Positions 1 to 34,344 of a stretch of DNA of 34,344 bases are shown here, piece after piece (the first letter of the stretch is position 1; each line of letters starts with the position of its first letter). The position numbers and the translations under genes were made by a program. The stretch is from the IMG/VR virus record IMGVR_UViG_3300044645_002371, positions 1 through 34,344 of that record; one strand, written 5' to 3'. This stretch comes from a virus. The notes beneath the pieces were generated by a model. That model was not told where the DNA came from. It saw only the letters and a list, made by a program, of their open reading frames with translations, and ran no database searches.

Positions 1-37
1 CCTGAATTCCACCTCGCCCACTAGGCCCCCACCAGCC

Positions 38-304
38 ATGCGCGTCCTTCTCGGCGGCAAGTACTGGACTCTCCGGTTCGCGCCAAACATGCGCGACTAC
101 GGTGACATGCAGGATCCGGGCAAGGCGCAGGGCCGCTTGATCCGCGTGGGCACCTGGCAGGGGGAGCACGACACCCTGGACACCATCATCCACGAAGCAC
201 TGCATTGCTCCCGCCCAGAACTAGACGAGTCCGCAGTCGACGCTACTGCCCGTGACCTCTCCCGCCTCCTGTGGCGTCTGGGTTACCGGCGGACTGGAAC
301 TTAA
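38..304 (+). CDS. Small HExxH metallopeptidase-like protein
   Basis: This 88-residue protein carries HEALH at residues 52-56, the HExxH zinc-binding motif of metallopeptidase-like folds. Acidic residues E61 and E64 just downstream could act as the third ligand. It is far shorter than a classical protease and resembles small phage-encoded HExxH proteins of unknown substrate. The frame stays open upstream to the window edge, so the ATG at 38 is only the most likely start; no good ribosome binding site is visible because the Chi-like motif (27-37) sits directly against the ATG. Metal binding is likely; proteolytic activity is inference. Confidence 0.65.
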   Translation: MRVLLGGKYWTLRFAPNMRDYGDMQDPGKAQGRLIRVGTWQGEHDTLDTIIHEALHCSRPELDESAVDATARDLSRLLWRLGYRRTGT

Positions 305-406
305 ACTTCCACTTACGGGAAGCCCATCCCTGTAAGAAACACTTACCAGTATTTCTTACCGTGTACGCCGGGTCGACAGTCCCAAATAACGTGTACAAAT
401 CTGCCA

Positions 407-422
407 CACTTGTCGACAAGTG
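407..422. promoter_or_regulatory. 16-base perfect palindrome, operator candidate
   Basis: CACTTGTCGACAAGTG is a perfect inverted repeat with 8-base arms. It lies 8 bases before the TTGACA hexamer in the gap upstream of the nuclease gene. A dimeric repressor site is the natural guess; the HTH-like protein at 1827-2309 is one possible partner. Binding is inference. Confidence 0.4.
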
Positions 423-610: not shown

Positions 611-628
611 TCAACACCAGGAGTCCCT

Positions 629-1843
629 ATGCCACCCACCGTCGAATCCGTGCAGTACCCCACCAGCCTGTCCGATGCCAACGTGACCCCGTGGCTTGAA
701 GCACACGGCATTTTCGCTCGCCTGCCCCCGATCCGCTCCTCTGACTACCGCCTGCTGCGGTCGTGCCCCCGTACCTACTACCTGTCCCGCCGACTCGGGC
801 TGGTCAAGGCCATGCAGTACAGCCGTGCCCTGAACCGCGGCAGCTGGGTCCACCTAGCATTCGCCTGCATCCTGTCTGACCCCATGTCCCGTGCCGCCGA
901 ACTCGAGGATGCCATCGTCGCCCGGTGCGAAGAGCTGCGCGACGTGTGCAAGGTCCTCGGCGTCTCACCCGACAAGATCCGGGAGATCGTGGCCCGCGAG
1001 GAGCAGGACGCACGCACCAGCATCGCCTGGTTCAACGCAGCCCTGACCATCACCGACGGCAGCGGACGCACCCTGGCCCAGCGGTTCGCAGAGGACTGGA
1101 CCATCATCGCGCAGGAGCCGGAGATCCACCACGGTGACCGACTCATCCAGCCCGACGTGCTACTCCAGGACAAGGCCGGGAAGGTGTGGATCGTGGACTT
1201 CAAGACCACCTCCCTCTCCACCAACGCACGCCTCCAGACCTGCCCCCTCGAGTTTCAGACCCAGCACTACTACCACACCCTGGACGATGCCGTTGGCAAC
1301 GGCAACTACGAGAACTACGGACCCATCGGCGGTGTCCTGCACATCGCCGTCCGTAAGCCGTCCATCGAGTTCGGCTCTAAGGACCGCCCATTCACCCTCG
1401 ATGAATCCCCATTCAAGTCCGGTCCCCGCAAGGGCGAGCCCCGCAACGAGCGTATCTACACTGGTGAGCCGGACCCTGCCCTTTACGAGCAACGGTGCAT
1501 CGACTGGTACCTCGGCCGCGGCGAGTACAGCCATCTCGAACCCGAACGGCTGACGGACCCATGCGTTGCGATTTCGACCACATCTTCCGAACTTCTCTCT
1601 TGCGAAGATATCTACTCGGAGTACAATGCGCGCCTCCGGTTCATCCGGTCTTACACGTCGCGCAAGTCCCAGCCCGCACAGTTTGAGATTGGGGATCCGG
1701 TGGTTCAACACGGCACCCCGTCTCCTTACATGACGTTCCACGCGGTGGAGCCCGGCAAGTGGCCGGAAGTCATCAGGCTCGAAGGATTCATGCAGCGCGA
1801 CCGTGACACATTCACGGAGCTCGAGAATGGAACCAACGACTGA
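629..1843 (+). CDS. PD-(D/E)XK nuclease (Cas4/RecB-like, PDDEXK_1)
   Basis: The 404-residue protein has the layout of RecB/Cas4-type exonucleases: an N-terminal SDYRLLRSCPRTYYLSRRL segment with C46, RGSWVH with H75, a catalytic aspartate D176 in QPDVLL, the DFKTT core at 190-194 (D190, K192), and a QxxY-like QTQHYY. The family cuts DNA ends and often works with a phage recombinase. The start is the ATG at 629 with AGGAG at 619-623; an in-frame upstream ATG at 536 lacks such a site and would read through the leader hairpin. It lies in a cassette with a Sak4-like ATPase and a DUF669-like protein, which supports a recombination role. A C-terminal iron-sulfur cluster, as in Cas4, is not clearly supported. 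Confidence 0.85.
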   Translation: MPPTVESVQYPTSLSDANVTPWLEAHGIFARLPPIRSSDYRLLRSCPRTYYLSRRLGLVKAMQYSRALNRGSWVHLAFACILSDPMSRAAELEDAIVARCEELRDVCKVLGVSPDKIREIVAREEQDARTSIAWFNAALTITDGSGRTLAQRFAEDWTIIAQEPEIHHGDRLIQPDVLLQDKAGKVWIVDFKTTSLSTNARLQTCPLEFQTQHYYHTLDDAVGNGNYENYGPIGGVLHIAVRKPSIEFGSKDRPFTLDESPFKSGPRKGEPRNERIYTGEPDPALYEQRCIDWYLGRGEYSHLEPERLTDPCVAISTTSSELLSCEDIYSEYNARLRFIRSYTSRKSQPAQFEIGDPVVQHGTPSPYMTFHAVEPGKWPEVIRLEGFMQRDRDTFTELENGTND

Positions 1844-2309
1844 GAACCCCACCAGCCAAGAAGCAGGCAAGTCGGTCTTGGGTGCGGTGATGTGGGCGGA
1901 AGTCCTACGCCTCGTCATCGCACCCCGGATCGTGAACATTGTGCGTACCCTGCCAGAGATCGAGAACCGGCAGCAGTTGCACCGTGCCTTCTGCGACCAC
2001 AACAAGGTCCGCGTCTCTTACTCCACCTTCAGCAGTTGGTGCGAGGATCTTGGCATTCAGTTCCGCAAGCGCATCGAGGTCAACATCCCCGGCTGGCGCG
2101 ACATGCCCAAGCAACAGCCAGTGCAGCAGACCGCCCCACCAGCCGTGCTCAGGCAGATGGAACCAGAGCCTAGACCGGACGAACCGGTGCAGTGGGACAC
2201 CCCGCCAAACAAGCCGTCGGAGATGTTCGCGAACGACGGCATGCCAAACGTGTTGCCGGGAGGGATGCGGGCACCCACCTTCCTCGACGGCAACGATTTC
2301 GCGAACTAA
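1827..2309 (+). CDS. Putative HTH DNA-binding protein
   Basis: This 160-residue protein begins at the ATG at 1827, which has GGAG upstream and overlaps the end of the nuclease gene by 17 bases. Residues about 40-90 are helical; the stretch VSYSTFSSWCEDLGIQF looks like the turn and recognition helix of a helix-turn-helix, followed by a basic strand and IPGW. The C-terminal half is proline- and acid-rich and probably disordered. Its place between nuclease and ATPase suggests a regulator or a DNA-binding accessory of the recombination cassette. The family is not recognised with certainty. Confidence 0.5.
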   Translation: MEPTTENPTSQEAGKSVLGAVMWAEVLRLVIAPRIVNIVRTLPEIENRQQLHRAFCDHNKVRVSYSTFSSWCEDLGIQFRKRIEVNIPGWRDMPKQQPVQQTAPPAVLRQMEPEPRPDEPVQWDTPPNKPSEMFANDGMPNVLPGGMRAPTFLDGNDFAN

Positions 2310-2330: not shown

Positions 2331-3230
2331 ATGACCCACTCCGTTACTCACGGTACGACTGTCGCATCCAAATACGCAGGACTTGGCAATGCCGTCACCA
2401 CTGGCCGCACTACTCCTTCCCGCATGCTTGGCCTGGTGGTCGGTGAAGCTGGCTGCGGCAAGTCTTTCCTCCTCCAGTCCCATCCTGGCGCGTACATCCT
2501 CAACCTTGACGAGACGCCTGCGGTCTGCGGGACCAGCGAAGCGGTCATGTTCCCCACCCCCGGTCCTGACGGTCGCTCAGTGGACGAGAAGGGAAGTCCC
2601 ATCGTCCTCGACTGGGCAGCACTCGAGGCCAAGCAGAAGGTCCTGATCGACCTCGCCGTGCGCAACCAGCCCCGCCCCGAGACCGTGGTCATCGACACCC
2701 TCGGTGCCGCCATCCGCCTGCTGCGCCCGCACATCGCCAAGATCTACGGCCGCGAGCGGTTTACCGACGTCGACGGCCGACTGGGCTGGGAACGCCTGTT
2801 CGACACCCTCATCGAGTTCGGCACCACCCTGCGCCGTCACGGCTACGGCGTGTACTACATCGCACATCTGTCCCGCAAGCACGTCCCGCTCAGCGAAAAC
2901 CAGAATGTTGAGGAGTACAAGATCCTCATCTCCGACGGCCTGTATGCCCGCATGTTCCCCATGTTTGACATCGTGATTCCGGTCACCGCACATTGGGATA
3001 TCCGCGAAGTCAGCCGTGACCAAGAGACCAACGTGGGCGGCAAGACCGTTACCCGCAAGGTCACCTCGCAAGAGAAGGTGCGCCGTCACTACTGCTCCTT
3101 CGACAATCCCAAGCTCGAAGGCATCGCAAAGGTCCGCACCCTGTCACCGCTGACCACCATTGAACTGCCACGCGAAAGTGCGTGGACCACGTTCTGCGCT
3201 GCCTACGAGAGCGCGAACGCCGCCCGCTGA
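2331..3230 (+). CDS. Sak4-like RecA-fold ATPase (recombinase)
   Basis: The 299-residue protein has a Walker A motif GEAGCGKS (38-45), a Walker B strand VVIDT (120-124, D123) and a GVYYIAH strand (174-180) typical of the RecA-like core of phage Sak4 ATPases. These proteins promote single-strand annealing or assist recombination with an SSB partner. AGGAG at 2319-2323 supports the ATG at 2331. It is followed by a DUF669-like protein and preceded by a PD-(D/E)XK nuclease, a known phage gene neighbourhood. The stop codon lies inside a strong hairpin (3213-3249). Confidence 0.85.
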   Translation: MTHSVTHGTTVASKYAGLGNAVTTGRTTPSRMLGLVVGEAGCGKSFLLQSHPGAYILNLDETPAVCGTSEAVMFPTPGPDGRSVDEKGSPIVLDWAALEAKQKVLIDLAVRNQPRPETVVIDTLGAAIRLLRPHIAKIYGRERFTDVDGRLGWERLFDTLIEFGTTLRRHGYGVYYIAHLSRKHVPLSENQNVEEYKILISDGLYARMFPMFDIVIPVTAHWDIREVSRDQETNVGGKTVTRKVTSQEKVRRHYCSFDNPKLEGIAKVRTLSPLTTIELPRESAWTTFCAAYESANAAR

Positions 3231-3300: not shown

Positions 3301-3822
3301 ATGCCCATTGAGAATAACGTCAAGGCAATGTTCAACTCGCTCAACAACACCTTCGCTAGCGTGCAGCCCGACAACGGCATGGGCGCCGGTGGTTGGTGGC
3401 CCGCCGAGGGTCAGCACGAAGTCTTCGTGTCCGACATCAACGTGCGCAACAGCGAGTACAAGTTGCCCGACGGACAGAAGGTGCCCGGCACCGACATCAC
3501 GTTCCGTTACCAGCTCATCAACGACACGGACTCCCCCACCGAGCCCCGTTCGTTTGACGGCTCGCCCTTCCGCCTCCCGCTCGATACCAGCGTCCTCGAT
3601 GACAAGGGCCGCATCCGCGTCGAGATCGAGATGCGCCGCCTGAAGGGCCACCTCCAGACCATCCTCCGCCGCGACGTCAAGGACATCGGCACCGCCATCG
3701 GTGACGCCGATAACAAGATCAAGGGCGCGGAAGCTGTCGCGGTTGTCGTGAAGTGCCAGTACGACAACGTGAACGGAAAGATCTACCGCAAGGACTTCCT
3801 TGTGAAGCCGCTTGCTGGTTGA
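3301..3822 (+). CDS. DUF669-like ssDNA-binding protein candidate
   Basis: A 173-residue soluble protein with the look of DUF669: an N-terminal GGWWPAEGQHEVFVSDINV segment, then beta strands (TDITFRYQLIND, RIRVEIEM) and a C-terminal VVVKCQYDNVNGKIYRKDFLVKPL pair of strands. Such proteins accompany Sak4-type ATPases in phages and are thought to act as single-strand DNA-binding partners. GGAG at 3291-3295 fixes the ATG at 3301. Strong Asp/Lys content and no membrane segment fit a cytoplasmic DNA protein. The function comes from context and general resemblance. Confidence 0.65.
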   Translation: MPIENNVKAMFNSLNNTFASVQPDNGMGAGGWWPAEGQHEVFVSDINVRNSEYKLPDGQKVPGTDITFRYQLINDTDSPTEPRSFDGSPFRLPLDTSVLDDKGRIRVEIEMRRLKGHLQTILRRDVKDIGTAIGDADNKIKGAEAVAVVVKCQYDNVNGKIYRKDFLVKPLAG

Positions 3823-3851
3823 TCTGTTACACTACCGAGACCCCACCAGCC

Positions 3852-4412: not shown

Positions 4413-4848
4413 ACACGGACTCTCTGCCGTCATCAGCCAACGCCATCGAGGCGAACCCTGGTCGATCACCGGCCCCTCGCCCTACGCTGACACCACCGAA
4501 CCCCTCCCCGCATTCGCGGGCACCCTCCTGACCCCCAAAGGCTGGTGGGGCATCGTCCTGCACTGCGCACGTGGCACGCACCCCCAGACCGCAGTCTCCC
4601 ACTTTGAACCCCACCTACCACCCATCCGGTGGCACGGGCAGCGCGCAAGCATCGGTCTCTACCGCATGCCCAACCGGGAACTCATCGTCTCATCCCGCAT
4701 CCAGCAGCCTGCACTCGATGAGATGATCGCTGCACTCGCCGAAGACATGGGTACTGAGCGCGCCGAAACCCGCTTCGACCGCCGACGCGTACCTGCCGGT
4801 GTCCGCTACCTCCCCGGTCAGCAGCTTCAGCTCTGGTTTTCTCTTTGA
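4399..4848 (+). CDS. Unknown 149-aa protein, last plus-strand gene
   Basis: GTG at 4399 overlaps the end of the previous gene by 14 bases, so translation may be coupled; no strong ribosome binding site is visible. The protein is rich in Trp, His, Pro and Arg and has a hydrophobic GWWGIVLHCARG segment around residue 50, encoded partly by a plus-strand Chi-like motif (4540-4550). No known fold is recognised. Its 3' end overlaps the convergent virion gene by 22 bases (4827-4848), so the two transcripts can be antisense to each other. Confidence 0.55.
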   Translation: MHKSEHGLSAVISQRHRGEPWSITGPSPYADTTEPLPAFAGTLLTPKGWWGIVLHCARGTHPQTAVSHFEPHLPPIRWHGQRASIGLYRMPNRELIVSSRIQQPALDEMIAALAEDMGTERAETRFDRRRVPAGVRYLPGQQLQLWFSL

Positions 4849-7800
4849 CCACCACGCGGCTGCTGCGACCATCGGTAGATATCACCGCGCTCCCCCGGCA
4901 CCTGCGCTTCCATCAACTGACCAGGCGCATACTCCTCGACTGACTGCCGGTACACGTCGCGCGCCGTCTTATCAATCGACTCCAGCGTCCGGGCCACCAC
5001 GCTCTCCTCACGCACCTTGATCGCCTGTTTCAGCTGCTCCTGCGTCACGGTCAGCGGCATCCCAAACCGCCGCTCAAACTCCCGCTTCACCTTCCCCGCA
5101 GCCTGAAGGTTGTTGCCAAGCACCGACGCGATGTACTGCCGACGCCCCTCGCGGATCGCATCCCGGTTCTTCAGCAGGAACTGACTCACCTCCTGCGGAT
5201 TCCCAAAGCGCCCAAGGTCCGCACCAAACGACTTCAACACCACGTCGCTGGTGGGGTACTGGCCGACAAACCGACCGTCCGACTTGAACACGGGCACCAT
5301 GCCACCCTGCGCCTGGCTCCAGTCCGCATACGTCTTCTGCAACCCAAGCGCCTGCAACGTCTCACTCGGACCCGTCGAGCCAAGCGCCCGACTCAGCGCA
5401 ATACCACCCGGCAGCACACGCGGCGCAATGTCCTTCAGGATCTCCACGTCCTGCGTCGCAAGCAACTTGACCGCATCAAAGCCGATGTCCACCACAGGCG
5501 GCACGTACACCTTGGGCTCGTCCCCCGAAAGCGCCTGCTGGCCCCCCACCAGATCAGTCATGCCGAACGCAAGGCCGCGGCTCACATCAACTCCGAGCGC
5601 ACTCTTGCCGATCTCGTACGTCACCGCGCTCACCGCCATCAACCGCGCCGTGTCAACGAGCGTCGTGCCCAGCTTCCCGCTCACTTCCCGACCCGCAAAC
5701 GAACGCGTGCCGCCCATCATCGCAGGCACGGTGAACAGGTTCGCAAGCGATCGGATGCCGTACTGCGCGAACTGACGGAACGCAGGCTCTCTCAGCAAGG
5801 GCGCGTAGAACAGAGAAGGACGGTTGATGGGGTTCGTGCCGAACTGGAACTGCTGCACCGCCTGCGTTGCGTCCAACTGTGCCCGGTAGAAATCGTCGCC
5901 CCCCACCCGCCCAGCACGCTGGTACGCGTTCAGCACCGCATTCGCAGTGACCGTCCGGTTCAGCGTCTCGCTGAGCTGGAACGGCTTCATCATCATCTCG
6001 AGGAACCGGAACTTCGGATTCCCAACCTCAATCCGCGCGCCGTACCCACTCCGCTCCAACATGTCGAACGTGCTGCTGATGTCCGCAATCTGCGTCAGGT
6101 CCACGTCCTGCCCGCCGAACGAACGCTTGAACGCACGCTGCATCGCTGCATTTCGCGCGTCAGCCGTAGGCCGCAGCCCAAGCTTTGCACGCTCCTGCAT
6201 GTAGTTGCCGATCATCTCGATGCTCTGCGCATACGCCTTGACCGTGTTGTTGAACCCCAACTGGTGCACGCTCTGGAGCGGCTGCAGCATGTTCACCAAC
6301 ACCGTGCCCAGGTTCAGGCCCATGTGGCTCACGTACAGGCTGCGGGTAATCGCACCCATTGGCATGAACTCCATACCCGTGGAGTCCGTGGCCCACCGCC
6401 GCATGTCCGTTACAAACCGACCGGAGTGCCCACCCTTTGCCTCAATCGCCTTCATGAACCTGCTGTTCGCAAGCCGTTCTACCCCCTGCCGGATTTGCCC
6501 AGCGACGGCAATATGCGTCCCGTCATCAAGCGGACGAACACCAGTAATCGCAGGCAGGATGTGCTTGCGCCACAGGTTCGAGGAGTACTTATCGCCAGGT
6601 CGTTCCGTTGCTGCTGAACGCAACTCCGTGTCAATCAGCATGGCAAGGTTGTACCCACCAGCCGGACGCTGATCTTCCGGAATCCCCTCAAGGCTGCGCG
6701 TCGTAGCCACAACACCACCACGTTCCCGTTGGCCGGTGGGGCCAGGGTAACGCACGTTGGAAGCAGCAGGCACAAAGTCCTTGAGCGTTACGCGCACCAT
6801 CGGGTCAGCAGCCGCGTCCATCGCGTAGTACGCGTAGTCGCGCGCCGTGCTGCTCACATACTTGTCGGCCGCAATGTCGGGCCGCAACCGCATCGTGCGG
6901 TAGAAGTTCTGGTTGGCAATCTGGCCCTGCACACGCTCACGCTGCTCCGCAATCAGCTCCTCAATCTGGTCGGTGCCACCGAACCGATCCGCGATTCTGC
7001 GCAGATCGTCCGGGTCCCACGGCACTTCCGTGGTCCTCGTACGCGCAAAGGTACGGCTAGTCGGACGAGCACCAACTCCCTGCACCTCTTCGGTAGCTAC
7101 CTTACCGGTGTAGGGGTTGTACGCAATGCGGGCACCCGTAGCATCACGCGCTTCGACCGTGTTGCGGGGGCGGTAGTTGGGGTCCATAAACCCCTCCTCC
7201 ATCGCCTCGACCACCACATCCTCGATCTCCTTCGCCGTAGACCCCAGCTTGACGCCGCCCTTCGACCGCTTGCTCGCCCGGATCAGTGGCCCAGCCACCT
7301 CATCGGTCAACAGAGCACGTAGCGTCTCCTGCCCATCCGCGGTCAGCACACCGCTCTCAGTCAACTGGTTGCTGCTCCGCATCTCCATCAACTGGCCCTG
7401 GGCCAAACGCAACACCTTGTCCCGGTCGATTACGAAGTTCCCGGTCCGCGCAAACTCAGCCTCGTTCCCAGCCACCAGCACCTTGCCTGCGAGGTAGAGC
7501 TTTTTCTCCGCCTCCATGAACCGACCGAGATCAAACTCCCGCACCACCGACTCAATCGCCTCATCATCCGCAACGTATCGCGGACGCGTAATGCGGGTAA
7601 ACGTGGGCTTGACCCCACCAGCCAAGTTGCTCGCAGGGTCGAGGAACACAGCCTCCGGATCCCGCGTGGGGTCCACTCGCTTGGGGTTTGCACCAAGCTT
7701 TACCCTCAGCGCGTCCACCCCCACCCGCTCCATCATGTCGTACGCAGTCTCCGGCACCTCCGTAGGTCCAAGGCCAAAAATGTCCTCTCGCCTCGTGCCC

Positions 7801-9575: not shown

Positions 9576-10130
9576 TTACTGTCTAAACTGGCCTTCCGCC
9601 ATGGAACGGCCAAGTTCCTGAAGAAGATCAACACGCGGTTCCCCGCCAAGCACCACAGCCCCCTGCGGCAGCTTCCTGCCCGCGGATACAGCCGTATAAA
9701 TGGCAGGCTCAAACAACGCAACGTTCCGAAGGTTCTGGTCAATCGAACGTTCAAGGCTCTGCCGCTTGACCTGTTCAACCTGCTGGGCAAGCGCATCGCG
9801 CCGCTGACTATCGTAGAAGTCCATCAGCGCCGCTTCGGTTCGGTCCTTCTGGATCCGCTGGCGCACGAGGCTTGCACCAGTCGCAATAGCGCCGATTCCG
9901 GCGAGCGCACCCAGCCCACCCCTCAGGACCCGTTGCCGCTTCATCGCTGACAACTTGCGAGCGCGGGTCGCGTCCATCCGCGCCTTGCGTTCAGCAGCCG
10001 CCGCCGGATCTGGCATAGGACCCATAGGTGCAGCAGGAGCAGTCGGCTTAGGCTTAGGCTTAGGCTTAGGCTTAGGCTTGCCCTTCGTACCACGGGCACC
10101 GGCTGGAACTGGTACGCCTCGTCGAGCCAT
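9576..10130 (-). CDS. Lys-Pro repeat protein with one membrane-like segment
   Basis: The N-terminus carries a run of six Lys-Pro pairs encoded by a hexanucleotide repeat (10045-10080), followed by a Pro/Ala stretch and a basic helix. A Gly/Ala-rich segment GGLGALAGIGAIATGASLV at about residues 71-89 could cross or associate with a membrane. The rest is helical and charged. The ATG overlaps the upstream stop as TGATG. Placement among virion-like genes suggests a minor virion or ejection component; a holin-like role is possible but unsupported. Confidence 0.55.
   Translation of the reverse strand: MARRGVPVPAGARGTKGKPKPKPKPKPKPTAPAAPMGPMPDPAAAAERKARMDATRARKLSAMKRQRVLRGGLGALAGIGAIATGASLVRQRIQKDRTEAALMDFYDSQRRDALAQQVEQVKRQSLERSIDQNLRNVALFEPAIYTAVSAGRKLPQGAVVLGGEPRVDLLQELGRSMAEGQFRQ
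10045..10080. repeat. Hexanucleotide tandem repeat (GGCTTA)5 + GGCTTG
   Basis: Five perfect GGCTTA units and one GGCTTG unit form a 36-base microsatellite. On the coding strand the unit encodes Lys-Pro, so changes in copy number stay in frame and alter the length of the Lys-Pro rod. Confidence 0.9.
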
Positions 10131-20516: not shown

Positions 20517-20517
20517 G

Positions 20518-22044: not shown

Positions 22045-22062
22045 GGCTTCCCTTTATCGAAA

Positions 22063-22092: not shown

Positions 22093-22124
22093 CGGGAGTC
22101 CCTGCCCGCCCACCCTCAAGTGGA

Positions 22125-22417: not shown

Positions 22418-22426
22418 GGTGTTCCT

Positions 22427-23547: not shown

Positions 23548-23549
23548 GG

Positions 23550-24023: not shown

Positions 24024-24043
24024 GCCCGCATTTTAGCAAAGGG

Positions 24044-24075
24044 AAAGGGGTGTGCCCCGAAGGACACACCCCTTT
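24044..24075 (-). terminator. UUCG-loop terminator after the capsid gene
   Basis: On the minus strand AAAGGGGTGTGTCC pairs with GGGCACACCCCTTT around a TTCG tetraloop, giving 14 pairs if the G-U pair is counted; that pair would be a C-A mismatch in plus-strand RNA, so the minus strand is the functional one. A run of CCTTTCCCTTT follows. It lies just past the capsid stop (24097) and before the small-protein cluster. Confidence 0.7.
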
Positions 24076-24096
24076 TGTTGCGGGTTCAGGCAGCGA

Positions 24097-25593: not shown

Positions 25594-25604
25594 GGTTGTT
25601 GTCT

Positions 25605-25619
25605 CCGGTCATTGACCGG
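25605..25619 (-). promoter_or_regulatory. Palindrome overlapping the capsid RBS
   Basis: CCGGTCA (25605-25611) and TGACCGG (25613-25619) form an inverted repeat with a one-base centre. On the minus strand its 3' arm runs into the GGAG of the capsid gene. It could act as a binding site for a regulatory protein or influence ribosome access. A perfect RNA hairpin would need a larger loop. Confidence 0.4.
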
Positions 25620-25633
25620 CTAGAGGCGATGAA

Positions 25634-26545
25634 TCAGACCTTCGTTTCCCCACCAGCCCCCATGTCGGCGGCAAGGCGGGTCAACGCGTCCACGTTGAAG
25701 TCTCGAACCGAAGCATCAGCAGCCCCACGGTCCATGCCCTTCTTGTATTCGGGCGGTGCCACGGGCTTCTGCGAACGCAACGTCTCGAGCTCGCCATCTG
25801 TTTCCGGCGACCGCCCGAGGGCATCAATGTCGCCGATGACCGTGCGATAGTTTCCTGCAATCGCCTTCGCCGCCTTCGCGGCTTCGTCCGCAACCCACCC
25901 TTCATCAAACCGTCCACCTTCCGCGTCACGGCGGCTGTAGAGGTTCTTGAGCGTGGTTTCACGGACCTGCTCTTGCAGAGCTCGCCAGGCACCCGCCGCA
26001 TGTTCGCGGCCACGGGTCTTATCGAGCGTTTGGAGCATCCTAACAATCTCCGGATTCTTGTCAATACTTTCGACAACCCTCCGGTCCATTTCTTCCTTCA
26101 GGAGCCGCAGTCGCAACTCCCGCGTCTCTCGCATCGCCGCCTCAGCCTGACCCTCAGCCTTGGCCGTGGTCCGCTTCAGCATGCGTTCAATCTCCCGTTC
26201 ATCCACATCAGCCTCCTGATCCCCACCATCCTCTTCGGCCCCACCAGCCTCGTCCTGCACGTACTCGGAGGCGTACTGGAGGGCCTCGGCGTCGCTGAAC
26301 CCTGCGCCCTTCAGCACCTCGAAGGCAGCCTGCTCATCCGCGCCATCTCCCCGCATCAGACGGGTGGCGTTCTCCCGGAACCGCTCCAGGCCCTGGATCC
26401 GGCTTTCAGCCTGCTCAGCCGCTTCCGCTGCTTCCTGCTGGGCCTGAAGGATCTCCCCTAGCGTGGCCTCCGTCCCGTCCTCGAACTCGAGGATAGTGTC
26501 CATGTCGATTCCTTCGTCAGCGCCTTCGTTCTGTTCTTCAGACAT
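25634..26545 (-). CDS. Scaffolding protein candidate (303 aa)
   Basis: The acidic N-terminus (EEQNEGADEGIDMDTILEFE), Ala/Glu/Gln coiled-coil segment (LQAQQEAAEAAEQAESRIQGLE) and helical rest are typical of phage scaffolds that guide procapsid assembly. The ATG follows GGAG and overlaps the portal stop by eight bases. The order portal, scaffold, capsid supports it. No protease is seen nearby. Confidence 0.75.
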   Translation of the reverse strand: MSEEQNEGADEGIDMDTILEFEDGTEATLGEILQAQQEAAEAAEQAESRIQGLERFRENATRLMRGDGADEQAAFEVLKGAGFSDAEALQYASEYVQDEAGGAEEDGGDQEADVDEREIERMLKRTTAKAEGQAEAAMRETRELRLRLLKEEMDRRVVESIDKNPEIVRMLQTLDKTRGREHAAGAWRALQEQVRETTLKNLYSRRDAEGGRFDEGWVADEAAKAAKAIAGNYRTVIGDIDALGRSPETDGELETLRSQKPVAPPEYKKGMDRGAADASVRDFNVDALTRLAADMGAGGETKV

Positions 26546-28544
26546 TCATTGCTCCTTGAGGTGGTTGTGCCTGGGGCCCAATCCGACCTGCGACCCCACC
26601 AGCCATCTGGGGGTTGACAATCGCAACATCGTCGGGGTTGGGGACCATGGCGGGTAGGGACTGTCCCATGAACGAGATCAGGGACTCACGGTATGCCTTG
26701 AACGCGTCCTGCACGGCAGGACTCGACAGCGACATGATTGGGTTGGCCATGAACGCGCTGAGGACCCTCAGCTGCAAGTCAGGGCGGGTGGTGTGCGGCG
26801 TAAGCACGATCTGCTGCGTCGTGGTCCCATCCCCATACAGCAACAGCACGTTCCGGATCACGCTCTCGTACGCACTCTTCTCCTCTTCCATCCACAGCGC
26901 GAAGTCAAGGCCCTCCTTGAGCGCAAGCAACTTCACGCCCTCCGGGTCCGTCATCCCCGCCTGCAACAGACCCATCGCCTCCTGCTTCCGCACGACCTCG
27001 CTCTTCGGTGTCGTATCACGCACCGTAAAGCTGATCTGGCTGAAGTTAGGAATGGGGTTCTTCTTGAAGTTGACCGTGCCCTCCTCGGGGTCAATCACGG
27101 CACCCGCAAGGTCAAGCGTCAACCGATTGACCGGAAGCGCTCGATCACTCAGCAGCATCTCCCGGCTCGCATTCGCAACAAGGCTCTTGTACATCCCACC
27201 GAACGCGGCCTGCACACCGCTGGTGGGGTTCGTCATCGCCTTGCTGATCTGCTCGTCCAGGAACTGCAACCCACTCGCGCTATCCACCCGGCCCTTCTCA
27301 GCCAACAGATCCTGCACCGGGCTCAGGCTGTCAGACACGCTCTTCGCAAACTGCGCGACCTTCCCCGGCACGTCACCGGCGTTGAACGGCTGAATCACCA
27401 TCGGGCGGAAGTCATCGCCAAGCAGCGCGTCCTTGCTGTAACTGACGTAACGCAGGCCCTTGCCGATGTCACGCATCACCGCGCGCTCGTTCATCGTGCC
27501 CTGCGGCATGACTAGCACACCGTACTTGTCGATGTCGCGCACGTTGTTGAACAGGCTCTTCATGAGCCGTTCCATCTCGCGCACGATGCCGAACATCAGG
27601 TCAAACAACCCAGCGCCGTGGAACGTGCCGTTGTCCATGAACCGCGCAAACCCGATCGGGCAGTACGTTTCCACCTCGCTCAAGTCGCGGTCCTCGAGCA
27701 CCACGTCGCCACTCGAGACGATGTACCGGCTCACGGTCCCACGCGGGCCGTCCATCCACAACTCCCGCACCTTCACGACTTCCATCTCGTTGCCGTCCGG
27801 CACGCCGTTCAGCGCGCCAGTACTCGCAGAGTTCAGGATGTAGCCGTTGCCGGGGCTGTCCGCGGGCTCCTCCATGTCATGGCCCCACTCCCAGCTCCAC
27901 GCGTCCATGCGCTCCTTGTGCTTCTCCAGCTTCGCCTTCCCGAACCGCTCCTGAAGGAACGTCATGGGAACCACGCGCTGCCGGATCAAACCCCTGACCT
28001 TGGTGTGGTCCATGCCCAGGCTCGGGAACGGCATCAACTCCTTGGGATGCACAACTTCCAGATCGCTAGTCAGTCCGATGGTGGGGTGGTCAACAATGTG
28101 ACCCGTGATGCCCGCGCTGCCAAGCAGTGCAAACAGGTAGTTGAACTCTCGCTTGACCTTCTCCAACTGCTGGTCGCTCACCACCGCATCGGCCACCAAC
28201 TGTGCCACACTTCGCTCGCGCAGTCCCGCGAGGCTATAGCCCTGCCGCAGTGCCTTGGGCCTCAGGTCCATCGTGTTCAACCGCGCCGTGGTCTTGTCCA
28301 CGATCGACAGCAGCTCCGTACTCTGGAACTCCATGTTCCCCTCTTCATCGAGGTAGTACGGCACCACACGCGCAGTGCGGGGATCAAACACGTCGAACCG
28401 CCTGAACCCGTTCAGGTAGTACCACGCCAGGATCCACAGCGTCCGCCGATACGTGAGCTTCGTAAGCTCCCGTTCAACGTGCTGGTCAATGATCCGCCCG
28501 AGGATCCGCTTGTCAGTCGGCAGCGTGTATGCGTCACTCGCCAT
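26538..28544 (-). CDS. Portal protein (668 aa)
   Basis: The sequence has the helical-beta pattern of podovirus portals, including LTYRRTLWILAWYYLNGFRRFDVFDP near the start and a conserved-looking VVHPKELMPFPSLGMDHTKVRGL region. The C-terminal third is helical and ends in a Gln/Pro-rich tail. Portals form the dodecameric ring at the packaging vertex. It follows the large terminase by one small gene and precedes the scaffold. Family assignment is by layout and neighbourhood. Confidence 0.8.
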   Translation of the reverse strand: MASDAYTLPTDKRILGRIIDQHVERELTKLTYRRTLWILAWYYLNGFRRFDVFDPRTARVVPYYLDEEGNMEFQSTELLSIVDKTTARLNTMDLRPKALRQGYSLAGLRERSVAQLVADAVVSDQQLEKVKREFNYLFALLGSAGITGHIVDHPTIGLTSDLEVVHPKELMPFPSLGMDHTKVRGLIRQRVVPMTFLQERFGKAKLEKHKERMDAWSWEWGHDMEEPADSPGNGYILNSASTGALNGVPDGNEMEVVKVRELWMDGPRGTVSRYIVSSGDVVLEDRDLSEVETYCPIGFARFMDNGTFHGAGLFDLMFGIVREMERLMKSLFNNVRDIDKYGVLVMPQGTMNERAVMRDIGKGLRYVSYSKDALLGDDFRPMVIQPFNAGDVPGKVAQFAKSVSDSLSPVQDLLAEKGRVDSASGLQFLDEQISKAMTNPTSGVQAAFGGMYKSLVANASREMLLSDRALPVNRLTLDLAGAVIDPEEGTVNFKKNPIPNFSQISFTVRDTTPKSEVVRKQEAMGLLQAGMTDPEGVKLLALKEGLDFALWMEEEKSAYESVIRNVLLLYGDGTTTQQIVLTPHTTRPDLQLRVLSAFMANPIMSLSSPAVQDAFKAYRESLISFMGQSLPAMVPNPDDVAIVNPQMAGGVAGRIGPQAQPPQGAMNV

Positions 28545-28782
28545 TGTTCTTGCGCTTCCTCAGAGACTTCCACCCTGGCGGCATCTCCTCAAAAAGCTCA
28601 ACGCCTTTGAGGTTAAACGTCGACATCGGAGACGGATCAGGCGTCGGCACCTTCATGTCGGCAGGTGTTGCCTCCACATGATCAGACTCGTGCTGCCCAT
28701 AATACGCCTGGGCCAGCATTTGAAAGTATACGAAAGGAATCGTGACGTACAGGGGATTAGACGCGCGAACCTCGTTTTGCAT
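28534..28782 (-). CDS. Unknown 82-aa protein between terminase and portal
   Basis: A short protein with a hydrophobic aromatic segment (PLYVTIPFVYFQMLAQAYYG) and a Pro/Asp-rich C-terminus that ends in basic RKRKNNGE. GAGAGGAAAC precedes the ATG, and it overlaps both neighbours (26 bases with the terminase, 11 with the portal). A small portal- or packaging-associated protein is likely. Confidence 0.5.
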   Translation of the reverse strand: MQNEVRASNPLYVTIPFVYFQMLAQAYYGQHESDHVEATPADMKVPTPDPSPMSTFNLKGVELFEEMPPGWKSLRKRKNNGE

Positions 28783-30700
28783 TTGTTTCCTCTCTCATTG
28801 CGTTCATCAATGATCCAACAGGCATCTGCCCGAAATCCATCGCCTCGACCGCTGGGACCCCACCAGCCATCGAATCCCGGATCGTGCCGTCTTCCAGCAT
28901 CCGCTCAAAGTCCAGGCCCTCGGCGGCTCCGGTGGGGTTCTGGCGGTCCAGCCGCCCCCGGACCACGAACATGCTCATGGCCACCGTGTCGATAAAGTCA
29001 TCGTGCTGGAGACCTCCGCTGTCCGCGTCCGGGTTGAACTGCTCAATCTGGTCGAACAGGAGCCGCCACGGCAACTGACCGCGCCGCCACGTGGGGAACT
29101 TGATGAGCCCATGCTCAAAGCGGTAGTGGAGCGCATTGATCTTTGCCGTCTTGTCCAGCGTGCCCACCCGCAGCGGGATGATCCGGGGCGGAGTCTCGCC
29201 CGTCACCTCTGACGCACGCTGCCTGACCATGCTCTCCATAGCCGTATACAAGCCGAAGGACTGCCGGACCACCTCCGGATGGATCGTCGGGCACCCCCAT
29301 CGGCCAGCCATCGCAAAGCTCTTCTCGATCAGCAACTGCTCCCTGCACTGCGCACCCCACGTGTCCAGCACAAACAGGCACGCATCCACCGGGTCGTACC
29401 CAAGCAGCGTGCAGACCTTGTAGTCGCTGTCGCTCGTGTTCGTGTAGCTGGTGTCTACCGTAATGAACATCCGCACCCGGTCTCGTAGGAACTGCTGGAC
29501 CGGCATCTTCTCCTCGACCCCACCCTTCCCGCGCCAGCACATCACCGCGTTGCTGCGCTTGGGGTCCAGGTCAAAGTCGGCGTCCGGCTGCTCCAGCCAC
29601 CACCCATGCTTCTCCGTGGTCACCTCGCCGAAGTGCATGTCCTCCGCCTCACCCGGCTGCGCTAGGTACTCCGCCAGGTAGTTGTGTGTACCGATGAGTT
29701 CCCGGATCTCCTCCAGGCTCACCAGCCCCTTCAGCTTGGGGTCCGCCTCCTTGGCCTTCCGGTCAAGCGGCCACATCCCCGGCCAGCAACTCTTGCGGAC
29801 ACCCTCGTCCTCGTACTCCGCCTTCAGCACCAAGCGGGCCCACTGGTCGAAACGGGGATCCTTCGCCACTAGGCCGGTGGGGCTCGGCACAGCCTCCATC
29901 GCGTGCCACGCGTAGTGCCGCCGACTCACAAACGTCGCCAACCACCGCACGCTCGTATCGCGGCGGGTGACCATTGGCATGACCACCTTGAACAACAGCC
30001 GCTCCATATACGACCGCAACACACTCATGCTGGTGCTTGCCTTGGGGTCATACTCAGGGTCATCAAGCGCGTACACGCGCGGACGGCCACCACGCTGCCT
30101 GCTCTCGGCGCTGATAGCTCGGAACCAGCTGCCGTTGTTCAGGTACATCATCTCCACGCCGAACGAACGCTCGCCCCGCTTTGGCGTCAACCGACCGTCG
30201 GGGAACTCAGGACCCCAATCGTCAATAAGCCGCTGGTTCGCAAGGAACTGCGTCTTCAGGATCTGGCTCGTCTGCTCGGCGTTGTCGATGCTGCTGGTTG
30301 CGTAGATGAACGAGTAAGCCGGGCGGCTAACCATTTGCAGGAGTGCCGACTTCCGGAAACAATTGCTCTTGGCAAAGCCACGCGGAGCAATTGCGACGCT
30401 GCGTGATGCGAGCGCCCACAGCCGGTAAATGGCGAAATGCCCCAGCGGCGATTCAATCGGATCGTCATCGTAGAAGTAGGGATTGAACTCTTCTTCCCAA
30501 TCGGGATACAGGTAGTAACGATCAAAAAAGTTGATGCATGCAGCAAGCGCATGCGCCCGCTCGTTCGGCTCGCCCCCCACCAGCCATTGACGGCATGCGT
30601 TGACGCGAGCCAATCGCTGGCCTTCCGGCGTCAGCTCCAGGTAATCAGGCGGAAGCGGGTAGAAGTCGTTACCGTTGCGTTCGATGCGGACCGCGCTCAA
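28757..30700 (-). CDS. Terminase large subunit (T7-like TerL)
   Basis: The TTG at 30700 overlaps the upstream stop as TTGA and lies five bases after the Chi-like motif, whose GGTGGGGAAG run can pair with 16S rRNA. The 647-residue protein has a Walker-A-like APRGFAKS (105-112), a Walker B VYALDDPE (209-216) and nuclease aspartates in MFITVDTSYTN and HDDFIDTVAMS. These fit T7-like packaging ATPase-nucleases. An ATG at 30802 would overlap the upstream gene by about 100 bases. Confidence 0.85.
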   Translation of the reverse strand: MSAVRIERNGNDFYPLPPDYLELTPEGQRLARVNACRQWLVGGEPNERAHALAACINFFDRYYLYPDWEEEFNPYFYDDDPIESPLGHFAIYRLWALASRSVAIAPRGFAKSNCFRKSALLQMVSRPAYSFIYATSSIDNAEQTSQILKTQFLANQRLIDDWGPEFPDGRLTPKRGERSFGVEMMYLNNGSWFRAISAESRQRGGRPRVYALDDPEYDPKASTSMSVLRSYMERLLFKVVMPMVTRRDTSVRWLATFVSRRHYAWHAMEAVPSPTGLVAKDPRFDQWARLVLKAEYEDEGVRKSCWPGMWPLDRKAKEADPKLKGLVSLEEIRELIGTHNYLAEYLAQPGEAEDMHFGEVTTEKHGWWLEQPDADFDLDPKRSNAVMCWRGKGGVEEKMPVQQFLRDRVRMFITVDTSYTNTSDSDYKVCTLLGYDPVDACLFVLDTWGAQCREQLLIEKSFAMAGRWGCPTIHPEVVRQSFGLYTAMESMVRQRASEVTGETPPRIIPLRVGTLDKTAKINALHYRFEHGLIKFPTWRRGQLPWRLLFDQIEQFNPDADSGGLQHDDFIDTVAMSMFVVRGRLDRQNPTGAAEGLDFERMLEDGTIRDSMAGGVPAVEAMDFGQMPVGSLMNAMREETNAKRGSRV

Positions 30701-31035
30701 CGCTTCCCCACCAGCCGGATTGCGGAGATGCGCAGCATGGCAATGGCCATCACCTGCGGGTCCGTCACGAACCGCCCAAGGTCCTCGCACACCATGAACC
30801 ACTCCGGGTTCGCCTTGATGCCGTCACGGAACATCACGCCCATCTCCGGCGGCTCAACGCCGCGGAACAGGCTTGGCTCCAGAATGCCGATGTCCTGGAA
30901 GATCGCTGCACCCAGCCGGTAGCAATCACTTGGGGTCAGACGCGCCAGCGTCTCGTACACCTTGAGCAGATGATCCGGAATCACGGGCGGGGAGGAACTG
31001 GGCTGCGAAAGGGAGACTGTTGGGGACTTGGACAT
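30697..31035 (-). CDS. Unknown 112-aa protein upstream of TerL
   Basis: A Ser/Pro-rich N-terminus (SLSQPSSSPPVIPDHLLKVY) is followed by a helical region with PQVMAIAMLRISAIRLVG near the end. It overlaps the preceding gene by 110 bases, an unusually long overlap, and ends in a TTGA overlap with TerL. An internal GTG at 30960 could be the true start and shorten the overlap. A terminase-associated role fits the position. Confidence 0.45.
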   Translation of the reverse strand: MSKSPTVSLSQPSSSPPVIPDHLLKVYETLARLTPSDCYRLGAAIFQDIGILEPSLFRGVEPPEMGVMFRDGIKANPEWFMVCEDLGRFVTDPQVMAIAMLRISAIRLVGKR

Positions 31036-31354
31036 GTTGGGTGGTCTCTTTCAGGGACTGGACCAGCTTCGCCGATGCACTGATCTTGACGGTCTGGTTC
31101 CCGTCAGAGTGCGTGATCTCGGCGTTCTGGCTCGTGATGATACCGTTGATCTCCGCCGTCTCCCTCACCACACCCCGCAATTGCTTCATTGCCGCCATCG
31201 CCACCTTGGGGTCCGGATCCCGGCTGAACCCCACCAGCCGTTCAACCTCTTCCCGCACTTCCCAATTGCTCTCCCGCATCGCCAACGCAACGCCCTCAAG
31301 CCCGAAGTACGAGCGGATCACTTCTTCCCCCGGAACAGCGGGCAACTTCTTCAA
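30926..31354 (-). CDS. Putative terminase small subunit (142 aa)
   Basis: The protein has a helical N-terminus with REEVERLVGFSRDPDPKVAMAAMKQLRGVVRETAEING, and a region with IKSAS-like turns. Its size and position two genes before TerL match small terminase subunits, which bind packaging-start DNA. The ATG overlaps the previous stop as ATGA. No helix-turn-helix is clear, so the call is based on context. Confidence 0.45.
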   Translation of the reverse strand: MKKLPAVPGEEVIRSYFGLEGVALAMRESNWEVREEVERLVGFSRDPDPKVAMAAMKQLRGVVRETAEINGIITSQNAEITHSDGNQTVKISASAKLVQSLKETTQHVQVPNSLPFAAQFLPARDSGSSAQGVRDAGASDPK

Positions 31355-32694
31355 CGCTTTCTCCTCCCAATCCCACGCATCTGCTGCGCAGAAGTCTTGC
31401 CCTTGGCTTGATCCATAATCAACTTGGCCATAAGAGCGCGAGCGCGGCGGCGCCGATCCATTGTCTCGCTGAACTCAGGGCTATCTGCTTCATACGTCGG
31501 CAGGCGTGCCCCCTCAAGCTTCATCAACATGCGGAGTGCTTCCTTGCCCTTACCAGGCAACCCACCGCCACCCTTGATCTCACCACGACGCTTGCCGGTA
31601 AACGACCCCACCAGCATCGACTCCTCAAGCTCGCGGTCTTCCCGGCGGTTCTTCATGCGAGCACCCGCTTCGGATGGTGGGGGCGCAAGTGCTGCTACCT
31701 TGCGGGGACGCATCTTTCCGCCAATCATCTCCGGCTTGGTTTCCTGAATGCGGGGCTTTACGCGCTTTCCGCGGCTCATTGCGGAGGCTTCGCCAGCAGC
31801 AGCAGTGCGCTTGCCAAACCGATTCGCCTGCTGAGCTTGCCGTTCGTTGATGATGCGGAACAAGTTGCGGGCCATAAGCCGAGCCTGTCGGGTCTGCTTA
31901 GGGTCATTTGCCACTGCACGCAGACGATCAAGCGGCGCATTCTCAACTCGACCAGGAAGCCGAGGTGCCTCAGTAATTGGCTTCATGGCTGCACGGACAG
32001 ATCGTTCGCTTGGCTGCGCAACCGGCTTCAGCTTCGAGATTTCCTTGCCTCCACGCGTTACGCGAAGGCCAGCCACTTCACCGCGCTGCCGGGGATTCAC
32101 AAACAGGGCACGCAAGCCAGCGATGCCTGGCTTCGGCGCATCTGGCTTTGTACCCGGTTCTCGAACGCGACCACCGTAACGCGAAGCCGCACGCAAGGTT
32201 GCAAGGCGTTCTCCCGCCCGGACATTGCCCGGAGCTTCCCCAGTCTCGATTCGTCTTTCAAATCCACGGGTCGCAAGGTCCCGGCCACGCTTGCTCGTAA
32301 ACACCTTGCGCATGAGGTTCCGGTATTCCTCAGGCAGCGCAGACCGATACTCAGCCCGCATCTGCTTGCGGCTCGTGAACTTTGGACGCAAGGCAGAACG
32401 CACTTCGTCTGACCCCTCGAAGTAACGCTCCTGAAGTCCTTCGCTTCCACCCTTGAATGAGGTTGCGCTGCTTACTCCCCGGATCTGATCCTGAGCATAG
32501 ACAACCGCTGTAGCCAAGTTGTCGGCAACTGACTTGCGGACTCTGCCCTCTTCAGCGAGCAGATTAATTGCGTCCTTGATTCCCTTTGCGGAGGAGTCCG
32601 TTGTGTCCCCAATGAATGCAATAACGTCAAGGACTTCCTTGGCATTCGGCATTTCGCCGATCGGACTGAGGGGTGCCTGTGTCTTCTTGGCCAT
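31351..32694 (-). CDS. Large basic unknown protein (447 aa)
   Basis: MAKKTQAPLSPIGEMPNAKEV begins a strongly Arg/Lys-rich protein with helical stretches (RKQMRAEYRSALPEEYRNLMRKVFTSKRGRD) and disordered basic parts. A GGAGCAGCAGG run lies before the ATG. It starts 68 bases inside the preceding gene. The start resembles the MAKK family loosely. A DNA-binding, packaging or virion-internal role is inferred from charge only. Confidence 0.5.
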   Translation of the reverse strand: MAKKTQAPLSPIGEMPNAKEVLDVIAFIGDTTDSSAKGIKDAINLLAEEGRVRKSVADNLATAVVYAQDQIRGVSSATSFKGGSEGLQERYFEGSDEVRSALRPKFTSRKQMRAEYRSALPEEYRNLMRKVFTSKRGRDLATRGFERRIETGEAPGNVRAGERLATLRAASRYGGRVREPGTKPDAPKPGIAGLRALFVNPRQRGEVAGLRVTRGGKEISKLKPVAQPSERSVRAAMKPITEAPRLPGRVENAPLDRLRAVANDPKQTRQARLMARNLFRIINERQAQQANRFGKRTAAAGEASAMSRGKRVKPRIQETKPEMIGGKMRPRKVAALAPPPSEAGARMKNRREDRELEESMLVGSFTGKRRGEIKGGGGLPGKGKEALRMLMKLEGARLPTYEADSPEFSETMDRRRRARALMAKLIMDQAKGKTSAQQMRGIGRRKR

Positions 32695-33166
32695 CCTGCT
32701 GCTCCTGTTCGCCGGATGGAATCATTGTAAGCACAAACCGGGTCAACTCCGCGGCCGCACTCTTGATTGCTGCACGTTCTGCTGGTGGGGAGTGAAGCCC
32801 CACCATCCGCCGGGAGTCGAGGATGGCGCGCACAACGAGCCGCCAGTTGCGGCGGACTTCGCGGGCTGGGATCTTGGTGCGGATGTAGGGCCTGCGCTTG
32901 CGGTCAGGCTTCATGTTGGAGTTCGGGCCGTTGAAGTCCAAGCTGCCCGGCACAGACAAGTGCTTGATGCAGACCTGGAATACGGCGGGATCCACGAACG
33001 CAACCCGGCCCAGCACAATGATTGGGCAGCAGATGGAACGGCACAGTGCGCGGAATGCGCGGGGCTTGTCAATGCCAAAGCCGCGCAACTCCTCGATGTA
33101 GTACGCCTCGCTCATCAGGCGTACACCGCGCCCAAAGCTGATGACGTGTTTCTCTCCCGTACTCAA
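32627..33166 (-). CDS. Unknown 179-aa protein (TTG start)
   Basis: The TTG at 33166 overlaps the previous stop as TTGA and follows GGGGAAG; a later ATG at 33115 lacks a ribosome binding site. The N-terminal part (ELRGFGIDKPRAFRALCRSICCPIIVLGR) is helical with paired cysteines; the rest has a basic segment PDRKRRPYIRTKIPAREVRRNWR and a Gln/Glu/Asp-rich tail. It may bind nucleic acid; no family is recognised. Confidence 0.5.
   Translation of the reverse strand: MSTGEKHVISFGRGVRLMSEAYYIEELRGFGIDKPRAFRALCRSICCPIIVLGRVAFVDPAVFQVCIKHLSVPGSLDFNGPNSNMKPDRKRRPYIRTKIPAREVRRNWRLVVRAILDSRRMVGLHSPPAERAAIKSAAAELTRFVLTMIPSGEQEQQDGQEDTGTPQSDRRNAECQGSP
32783..32805. repeat. Facing pair of Chi-like motifs (hairpin)
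   Basis: TGGTGGGG (32783-32790) and CCCCACCA (32798-32805) face each other around AGTGAAG and can form an 8-bp stem inside the gene at 32627-33166. The left member belongs to a plus-strand 10-mer, the right one to the CCCCACCATC variant. Confidence 0.8.
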
Positions 33167-34344
33167 TAGTACTTTCCGGGGAAGTAGTACATACTTCTCG
33201 GGTCTCTAAAGCTGTCCGGAAGAATTTTCATAAGAGATTCAAGAACTCCAGGTGGCATCGGAGGCGCTGCACCAATGTTGCCACCAGAAGAAAGATCTCT
33301 TCGATAGGTGCTTGGCGGCATCGGCATTGCAGGAGGCAGGTTGTCAAAGTTCAACCGCATTGGCGGGTTGACAAAACTTTCGCTTGGTACAACGGAAGAT
33401 CTTCCGGTGCGAGGACCTTCACGCAATGCTCGAAGACGCGCTTCTTCCTTCAATTGGTTCTGATACCTAGCGCGTTCTTCAGCAACTCGCCGTTCGTTAA
33501 GTTCGGTGTTGCGCTTGTTTATATTGATTGTCTGAGCAACTTCGTTTACCACGTCATCCGAATACTCAGCTTCCGGATCAGTGAAACCAAACATAACCGG
33601 CAACGGATCAACAACGGATTCAAGCCCACCGAGCACTCTACTAATTCCATCAACTCCAGTTCGGTACAGCGCGCTTGCCCCTTCAGGAGAAAATGCTCGG
33701 CTCAAAGCATTTAGAACCAACTGAGGGTCATTGAGCTGATTAAGGGGATCAGGAACGAGTGCTTCTGCGCGGCGGGCTGCGTTCTGCTGGGAATGAATTT
33801 GATTTACAGCCATCTGCGCGCGTGCTGCGTTGCGGTTGATGACTTCCTGCTCTGCCGAAAGACGATTGCGTTCAGCAAGCCTCTCTTCATCGGTGCCGTA
33901 CTTGGACTGGATTGCGGCTTCGCGGTAGCGGGCTTCGAGTCCCTGAGCGGCCTGACGGGCTTCCATGTCGGCGAGCATGCTTTCGGATTGCTGGTCTAGC
34001 TCTGCTCGAGAACGAGCAATTTCTTCGGGAGTGATTGGCGCGCCCGCATTTGGGCTCATCCCCCTGAGCTTGGCGAGTTCATCACTGAGCTTCTTCTCGG
34101 GGCTCCGTCGATCACGAGGAAGCGCTGGTGGTGCGGCGTAGACGGAGGACGGTGCGCCAATGGTGCGCGGCGCAAGACGAGCGGATTCGGCTGCGTCGTA
34201 GCTCCGGTCCGGGTTGCGCAGGGCCTTTGCGAGTGCTATTGCTGACTCGGGTGTAGGCTTGGCGCGGTTAGTGGCCTTGGTGGCTTCGAGGTCACGGGCT
34301 TCCTGCTGGCGACGCGCGCGCATGGCTGCGCGGTTCTGGGCGTA
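33163..34344 (-). CDS. Partial coiled-coil protein at the right edge
   Basis: The frame is open past an ATG at 34323 to the window edge, so the true N-terminus may lie outside. The sequence is highly charged and helical (REAAIQSKYGTDEERLAERNRLSAEQEVI; RRVAEERARYQNQLKEEARLRALR) with a Pro/Met-rich C-terminus (LPPAMPMPPSTYRRD). It may be a packaging or virion accessory protein. Function is unknown. Confidence 0.5.
   Translation of the reverse strand, partial: YAQNRAAMRARRQQEARDLEATKATNRAKPTPESAIALAKALRNPDRSYDAAESARLAPRTIGAPSSVYAAPPALPRDRRSPEKKLSDELAKLRGMSPNAGAPITPEEIARSRAELDQQSESMLADMEARQAAQGLEARYREAAIQSKYGTDEERLAERNRLSAEQEVINRNAARAQMAVNQIHSQQNAARRAEALVPDPLNQLNDPQLVLNALSRAFSPEGASALYRTGVDGISRVLGGLESVVDPLPVMFGFTDPEAEYSDDVVNEVAQTININKRNTELNERRVAEERARYQNQLKEEARLRALREGPRTGRSSVVPSESFVNPPMRLNFDNLPPAMPMPPSTYRRDLSSGGNIGAAPPMPPGVLESLMKILPDSFRDPRSMYYFPGKYY

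Follow-up and report, generated by a model that had tools for sequence, protein, structure and literature searches.

The stretch of DNA analysed here (hereafter the window, 34 kb) covers positions 1 to 34,344 of IMG/VR record IMGVR_UViG_3300044645_002371. Because it encodes a terminase large subunit (TerL, PHROG 38), it belongs to a tailed phage, and since related viral contigs are up to about 50 kb long (in the assembly, three of these have terminal repeats of 123-127 bases), it makes up roughly two thirds of a genome of about that length in a large uncultured family. Dispersed over the window is the G-rich 10-mer GCTGGTGGGG, whose enrichment and likeness to the bacterial recombination signal Chi had been pointed out in an earlier, sequence-only reading. 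A recombination module opens with the gene of a PD-(D/E)XK nuclease, which is conserved across the family and is followed by a small protein with predicted helices and a Sak4-like protein; the three genes occur together in every near-complete family genome examined. In relatives, the third of the genome that is absent from the window carries a family A DNA polymerase, a primase/helicase, an ERCC4-type nuclease and a uracil-DNA glycosylase. Gene calls are uncurated open reading frames backed by conservation, and many relatives are fragments.

Enrichment of the word in the window

The enrichment is confirmed. The window contains 28 exact copies of GCTGGTGGGG, 7 on the plus and 21 on the minus strand, the first at positions 27-36 and the last at 32781-32790, compared to 0.34 expected from an order-3 Markov model; the model was trained with the motif included in the sequence, so this and the following expectations are conservative. 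For the octamer GCTGGTGG, 33 copies (the last at 34124) were counted against 5.1 expected, which corrects the 32 given earlier. Similarly, TGGTGGGG occurs 42 times (2.8 expected), and GNTGGTGGGG occurs 38 times. Thus, the Markov-model check that had been proposed was run, and such a model does not predict comparable counts. In 500 synonymous-codon shuffles, the 10-mer was found 4.6 +/- 1.1 times, with a maximum of 8; shuffling was confined to coding sequence, and the intergenic bases and unshuffled sites, which stayed fixed, are counted in this mean. These counts lie far below 28, and therefore the abundance of the word follows from neither the encoded proteins nor codon usage. As the earlier reading held, selection acts on the DNA, because the sites are translated as AGG, LVG, PTS, WWG and PPA, in several frames and in both senses. 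Inside open reading frames lie 25 of the 28 sites, and three are intergenic.

The sites are dispersed, and what their flanks have in common is only a preference, for G before the word and for T or G after it. Only five octamers GCTGGTGG in the window lack a following GG. In the clade of the window (clade A1), GG follows in 263 of 321 octamers, and the octamers without it are near expectation. The enriched unit in this clade is therefore GGCTGGTGGGG and not the E. coli octamer GCTGGTGG alone. The word is short, asymmetric, over-represented against Markov models and selected at the level of DNA, as is usual for Chi-type signals, and the 10-mer reaches a density of 0.82 per kb in the window. Its sites, together with variants and the genes named in the text, are collected in Table 1.

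Table 1. Sites of the word, variant sites and selected genes of the window
Feature	Positions	Strand	Remarks
GCTGGTGGGG	27-36	-	exact match; directly upstream of open reading frame 38-304
GCTGGTGGGG	658-667	-	exact match; same position in 7/8 clade A1 nuclease genes
GCTGGTGGGG	1847-1856	-	exact match; intergenic
GCTGGTGGGG	2134-2143	-	exact match
GCTGGTGGGG	3841-3850	-	exact match; intergenic
GCTGGTGGGG	4541-4550	+	exact match
GCTGGTGGGG	5247-5256	+	exact match
GCTGGTGGGG	7613-7622	-	exact match
GCTGGTGGGG	10666-10675	+	exact match
GCTGGTGGGG	13519-13528	-	exact match
GCTGGTGGGG	14271-14280	-	exact match; close to gene end; equivalent position occupied in 7/7 clade A1 relatives
GCTGGTGGGG	15672-15681	-	exact match
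GCTGGTGGGG	16884-16893	-	exact match
GCTGGTGGGG	17199-17208	-	exact match
GCTGGTGGGG	18178-18187	-	exact match
GCTGGTGGGG	20803-20812	+	exact match
GCTGGTGGGG	21733-21742	+	exact match
GCTGGTGGGG	22670-22679	-	exact match
GCTGGTGGGG	25648-25657	-	exact match; position kept in 8/8 clade A1 relatives
GCTGGTGGGG	26239-26248	-	exact match
GCTGGTGGGG	26594-26603	-	exact match; position kept in 7/8 clade A1 relatives
GCTGGTGGGG	27219-27228	+	exact match; position kept in 8/8 clade A1 relatives
GCTGGTGGGG	28858-28867	-	exact match
GCTGGTGGGG	30575-30584	-	exact match
GCTGGTGGGG	30706-30715	-	exact match
GCTGGTGGGG	31229-31238	-	exact match
GCTGGTGGGG	31606-31615	-	exact match
GCTGGTGGGG	32781-32790	+	exact match
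variant GTTGGTGGGG	7941-7950	+	
variant GTTGGTGGGG	10346-10355	-	
variant GTTGGTGGGG	10819-10828	-	
variant GTTGGTGGGG	11738-11747	-	
variant GTTGGTGGGG	16242-16251	+	
variant GTTGGTGGGG	20788-20797	-	
variant GATGGTGGGG	26221-26230	-	
variant GATGGTGGGG	28077-28086	+	
variant GATGGTGGGG	31673-31682	+	
variant GATGGTGGGG	32798-32807	-	
PD-(D/E)XK nuclease, RecB/AddB/Cas4-like domain	626-1843	+	Pfam PF12705 E 7e-12; PHROG 1218 exonuclease E 2e-14
small protein between nuclease and Sak4	1863-2309	+	family-wide; three predicted helices
Sak4-like single-stranded-DNA-annealing protein	2331-3230	+	PHROG 124 E 3e-10; Pfam AAA_24 E 8e-13
conserved protein after Sak4	3307-3822	+	family-wide homologues; no Pfam match; SSB-like by position only
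terminase large subunit	28757-30802	-	PHROG 38 E 1e-32
family-wide protein of unknown function	32627-33166	-	predicted beta-hairpin/helix-helix N-terminal domain

Clade-specific words and their inheritance

The family sample comprised 40 records, corresponding to 39 phages or fragments, since one Myxococcales metagenome-assembled genome (MAG) contributed three contigs. In all 40, the top dispersed 8-mer is part of one G-rich word, so that the check in relatives also came out in favour of the earlier claim: every relative examined has a dispersed G-rich word, at about one copy per kb. The words of the clades are GCTGGTGGGG, cGTGGGGGGAc, GAGTGGGGG, cTAGTGGGGAA, AGCGGGGAA and aGTGGGGGGA, with the common core G[T/C]GGGG. 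When one-substitution profiles were pooled per clade, with expectations from order-2 models, they were nearly all-or-none in clades A1 and B-F, which likens the words to sites read by a protein. In clade A1, the word is G-G-C-T-GGTGGGG-(T/G), and CTGGTGGGG was observed 287 times against 5.4 expected. The corresponding observed and expected counts are 144 and 3.7 for c-GTGGGGGGA-c in clade B, 85 and 1.2 for a-GAGTGGGGG in clade C, 17 and 0.3 for c-TAGTGGGGA-A in clade D, 30 and 0.5 for AGCGGGGAA in clade E, and 27 and 0.4 for a-GTGGGGGGA in clade F. Substitutions within GGTGGGG are at or near chance level in clade A1, and two positions ahead of the core's second G, C predominates, followed by T, in agreement with the variation at the second position described from the window alone.

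Each clade word is constant among relatives whose GC content ranges from 0.49 to 0.64. In a maximum-likelihood tree of the major capsid protein (MCP; 75 loci), the words are grouped by branch, and on 18 trees, each built from a different gene of the sampled genomes, one origin suffices for each word type. The word is thus inherited vertically within the phage lineages and has undergone about five changes. Discordance among gene trees that might single out the gene of a reader was not found, as all 18 trees agree; consequently, the reader cannot be narrowed down to a single gene by this test.

The positions of the sites are more fluid than the word itself. Among the aligned genes of clade A1, 48 positions are occupied, of which 24 are found in a single genome and ten in at least half of the genomes; the sites turn over, and some are old. 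Spacing is more even than that of control words of equal abundance (mean coefficient of variation, CV, 0.77 vs 1.00), with 30 of 31 genomes below their controls, these genomes being relatives and hence non-independent. Across the family, sense and antisense sites are close to balance (290:219 in clade A and 134:121 in clade B), and clustering at gene boundaries amounts to a mild excess near gene ends in clade A only. The dominant orientation relative to the genome is the same in clades A and B. The strand bias of clade A (7:21 in the window) is that expected from strand-specific base composition, and in four of six clade B1 genomes the bias exceeds this expectation (p 0.0004 to 0.007). No strand-bias switch marking an origin was seen. 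Some bacterial Chi words are likewise without skew (PMC5959072).

Comparison with Chi-rich phages and other viral contigs

In 28 family genomes, each trimmed to 40 kb or less, the z score of the top dispersed 8-mer had a median of 15.9; the median was 6.3 in 20 unrelated viral contigs of about 40 kb each, which had been drawn from pattern-scan matches and are not a random sample. In phage P1, which served as a positive control, GCTGGTGG occurs 50 times against 4.5 expected (0.53 per kb), with an equally sharp substitution profile and no requirement for a following GG. One control contig (IMGVR_UViG_3300048927_000308) comes from a P1-like phage that is close to Cronobacter phage JK004; it has 33 copies of GCTGGTGG in 40 kb (0.82 per kb), balanced between the strands. 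According to Bobay et al. (2013, PMC3784561), Chi is over-represented in lambdoid phages without RecBCD inhibitors and most strongly in T5-like and P1-like phages; they report it for phages that package concatemers and for those that have a recombinase and lack an inhibitor. Phage genomes rich in Chi are thus already known, and given P1, the T5-like phages and many lambdoids, the earlier statement that such enrichment is absent from most phages has to be qualified.

The present family shares with these phages a short, asymmetric, G-rich and dispersed word with a sharp profile, selected as DNA, at a density of like order. It differs in that its word is 10 bases long or longer, requires GG at its 3' end, varies between clades and is evenly spaced, whereas the Chi sites of P1 are clustered (CV 1.5); in addition, the family has its own nuclease and Sak4. 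New in this family are the diversification of the word among clades, its greater length and the regular spacing of its sites. Searching the literature for the 10-mer under a motif name returned nothing relevant.

Known Chi words include GCTGGTGG in E. coli, GAAGCGG in S. aureus, AGCGG in B. subtilis, GCTGGCGC in P. syringae and GCGGTGGT for the AddAB of Caulobacter (PMC8022716, PMC5959072, PMC5443536). The first three end in GYGG and so resemble the clade words. The B. subtilis word is contained in the clade E word AGCGGGGAA, but in clade E those copies of AGCGG that lack GG behind them are not enriched; GGTGG of the Caulobacter word is contained in the clade A word. Chi is thus the closest functional analogue, as the sequence-only reading proposed, but identity with the E. 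coli octamer is not supported, because two extra 3' Gs are required and other clades use other words.

Three further viral contigs carry repeated words of other kinds. IMGVR_UViG_3300022562_000309 has 15 copies of TGTTCACT in 40 kb, mostly halves of near-palindromic TGTTCACTNNGTGAACA boxes, which resemble a dispersed operator set. In IMGVR_UViG_3300025932_000005, the palindrome CCCCGGGG occurs in 13 copies confined to about 11 kb (16967-28124; about one per kb), and in IMGVR_UViG_3300036803_000057, the asymmetric TGTAGTTA(C) occurs in 12 dispersed copies in 40 kb, on both strands.

Candidate readers of the word and significance

The word is DNA-level, asymmetric, dispersed, evenly spread and indifferent to genes, and it changes as a word. 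For these reasons we tentatively favour, at somewhat less than even confidence, the interpretation that the 10-mer is a phage-carried Chi-type signal, read by a helicase-nuclease of the RecBCD/AddAB class running in from a DNA end, and that it probably protects or processes the ends of phage DNA. Such an enzyme would enter linear or broken phage DNA at an injected end, a packaging end or a replication break. Reading of a site would halt destruction and leave a 3' single strand, which the host RecA or the nuclease/Sak4 module of the phage could then use for concatemer joining or repair. The reader would most likely be a host enzyme, in view of the resemblance to known Chi words and of the precedent of P1, whose host has a known Chi. 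In that case the clade-specific words would mirror host groups with different Chi words.

Several results weigh against a Chi-type signal of the host. In a single scan of bacterial genomes, an MCP alignment matched only three contigs of one Myxococcales MAG (NP1036); outside the phage contigs, the word was observed once in 400 kb of this MAG, compared to 1.3 expected, and it is likewise not enriched in 17 kin genomes. The search thus yielded no host genome that carries the word. The tetranucleotide usage of the phage contigs differs from that of the MAG, which may for this reason not be the host and is weak evidence on the point, as these contigs may be mis-binned. The divergent family member concerned is split over contigs C7, C18 and C72 and is likely either a mis-binned or a host-associated phage. 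No tRNA genes that could serve as host clues were found. In addition, the two 3' Gs are required beyond any known Chi, the even spacing departs from the clustering in P1, and the perfect tracking of the phage tree suits a phage-encoded reader at least as well. Finally, two paired-site pattern scans for unrelated phages sharing the words, which had low sensitivity, returned nearly exclusively local repeats and no phage with a word dispersed.

On the other hand, the word may be read by a protein of the phage itself, in a Chi-like system of its own whose sites and reader co-evolve in each lineage; this is possible, and we give it less credence than the Chi-type interpretation above. The candidates are the PD-(D/E)XK nuclease, the adjoining small helical protein, Sak4, or another DNA-binding protein acting in replication, compaction or packaging. 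The single origin of each word type on all 18 gene trees, the stability of the word over the range of GC content, the constant presence of the recombination module, the lack of enrichment in the sole possible host assembly and the 3' GG all argue for such a reader. However, no covariation between the word and the predicted helix of the small protein was seen: A1 and A2 have the same word and differ in the helix, as do B1 and B2. Likeness to several bacterial Chi words would moreover be a coincidence, and we know of no phage-encoded Chi reader, which we count against this alternative. A more specific form, in which a phage reader and its word have co-diversified into at least six dialects (a GYGGGG core with lineage-specific flanks) that mark the phage's own DNA so that it is processed, repaired or packaged without regard to the Chi of the host, is possible, though less likely than not.

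As to the candidates themselves, the nuclease is a possible user of the sites, and a search of the PDB with its profile gave no match. The small protein, with its three predicted helices, is a candidate DNA-binding protein; a structure search gave only weak and insignificant winged-helix matches (E above 1). In several clades it has a conserved acidic C-terminal stretch (often DNE), possibly a protein-contact tail. The family-wide protein at 32627-33166, with its predicted N-terminal domain, is an alternative candidate reader, for which the structure search gave no significant fold match. TerL, MCP and Sak4 have no match in cultured phages, and the DNA polymerase A matches there are only about 24 percent identical. 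No RecBCD inhibitor was noticed, although no systematic search was made and small family-specific inhibitors may be present. Elsewhere in the window, the hexamer GGCTTA is repeated in tandem in at least five copies (10045-10076) close to the beginning of gene 9576-10130, where it encodes a proline/lysine repeat.

It is improbable that the words are programmed single-strand nick sites. T5, phiKMV-like phages and Pseudomonas putida phage tf do carry group-specific, asymmetric consensus words of similar length that are dispersed in the genome, but all 14 nick sites of tf lie on one strand, at positions similar among relatives (PMC3517423). In contrast, about 30 percent of the sites described here lie on the other strand (7 and 21 per strand in the window), half of the aligned clade A1 positions are occupied in a single genome, and the density is about three times higher. 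Still less probable are repressor or transcription-stop sites like the stoperators of mycobacteriophages, which are mainly intergenic and aligned with transcription. The sites described here lie for the most part inside genes and in both senses, near balance across the family, and neither an integrase nor a repressor was recognised among the proteins searched; the resemblance lies in the numerous asymmetric sites that the repressors of Cluster A phages have across the genome (PMC9283540, PMC6550527). That the enrichment merely results from base composition, codon usage or repeats has a practically negligible probability: the strand carrying most words is G-rich and the strand bias of clade A follows composition, but the Markov models, the codon shuffles and the one-substitution neighbours at chance level exclude this origin, and the sites are dispersed without shared flanks.

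The earlier interpretation is thereby sharpened to a Chi-like code that spans the family and differs between its lineages. So far, Chi words have been described in no more than a handful of bacteria (PMC8022716). Should the reader be a host enzyme, phage genomes would directly reveal which Chi words uncultured bacteria use, and six such words are given here. If a phage protein reads it, the family would have a phage-encoded, Chi-like self-marking system, a kind that to our knowledge has not been described before. Either way, the family shows a genome-wide recognition word and its reader changing together, stepwise, along the phylogeny.

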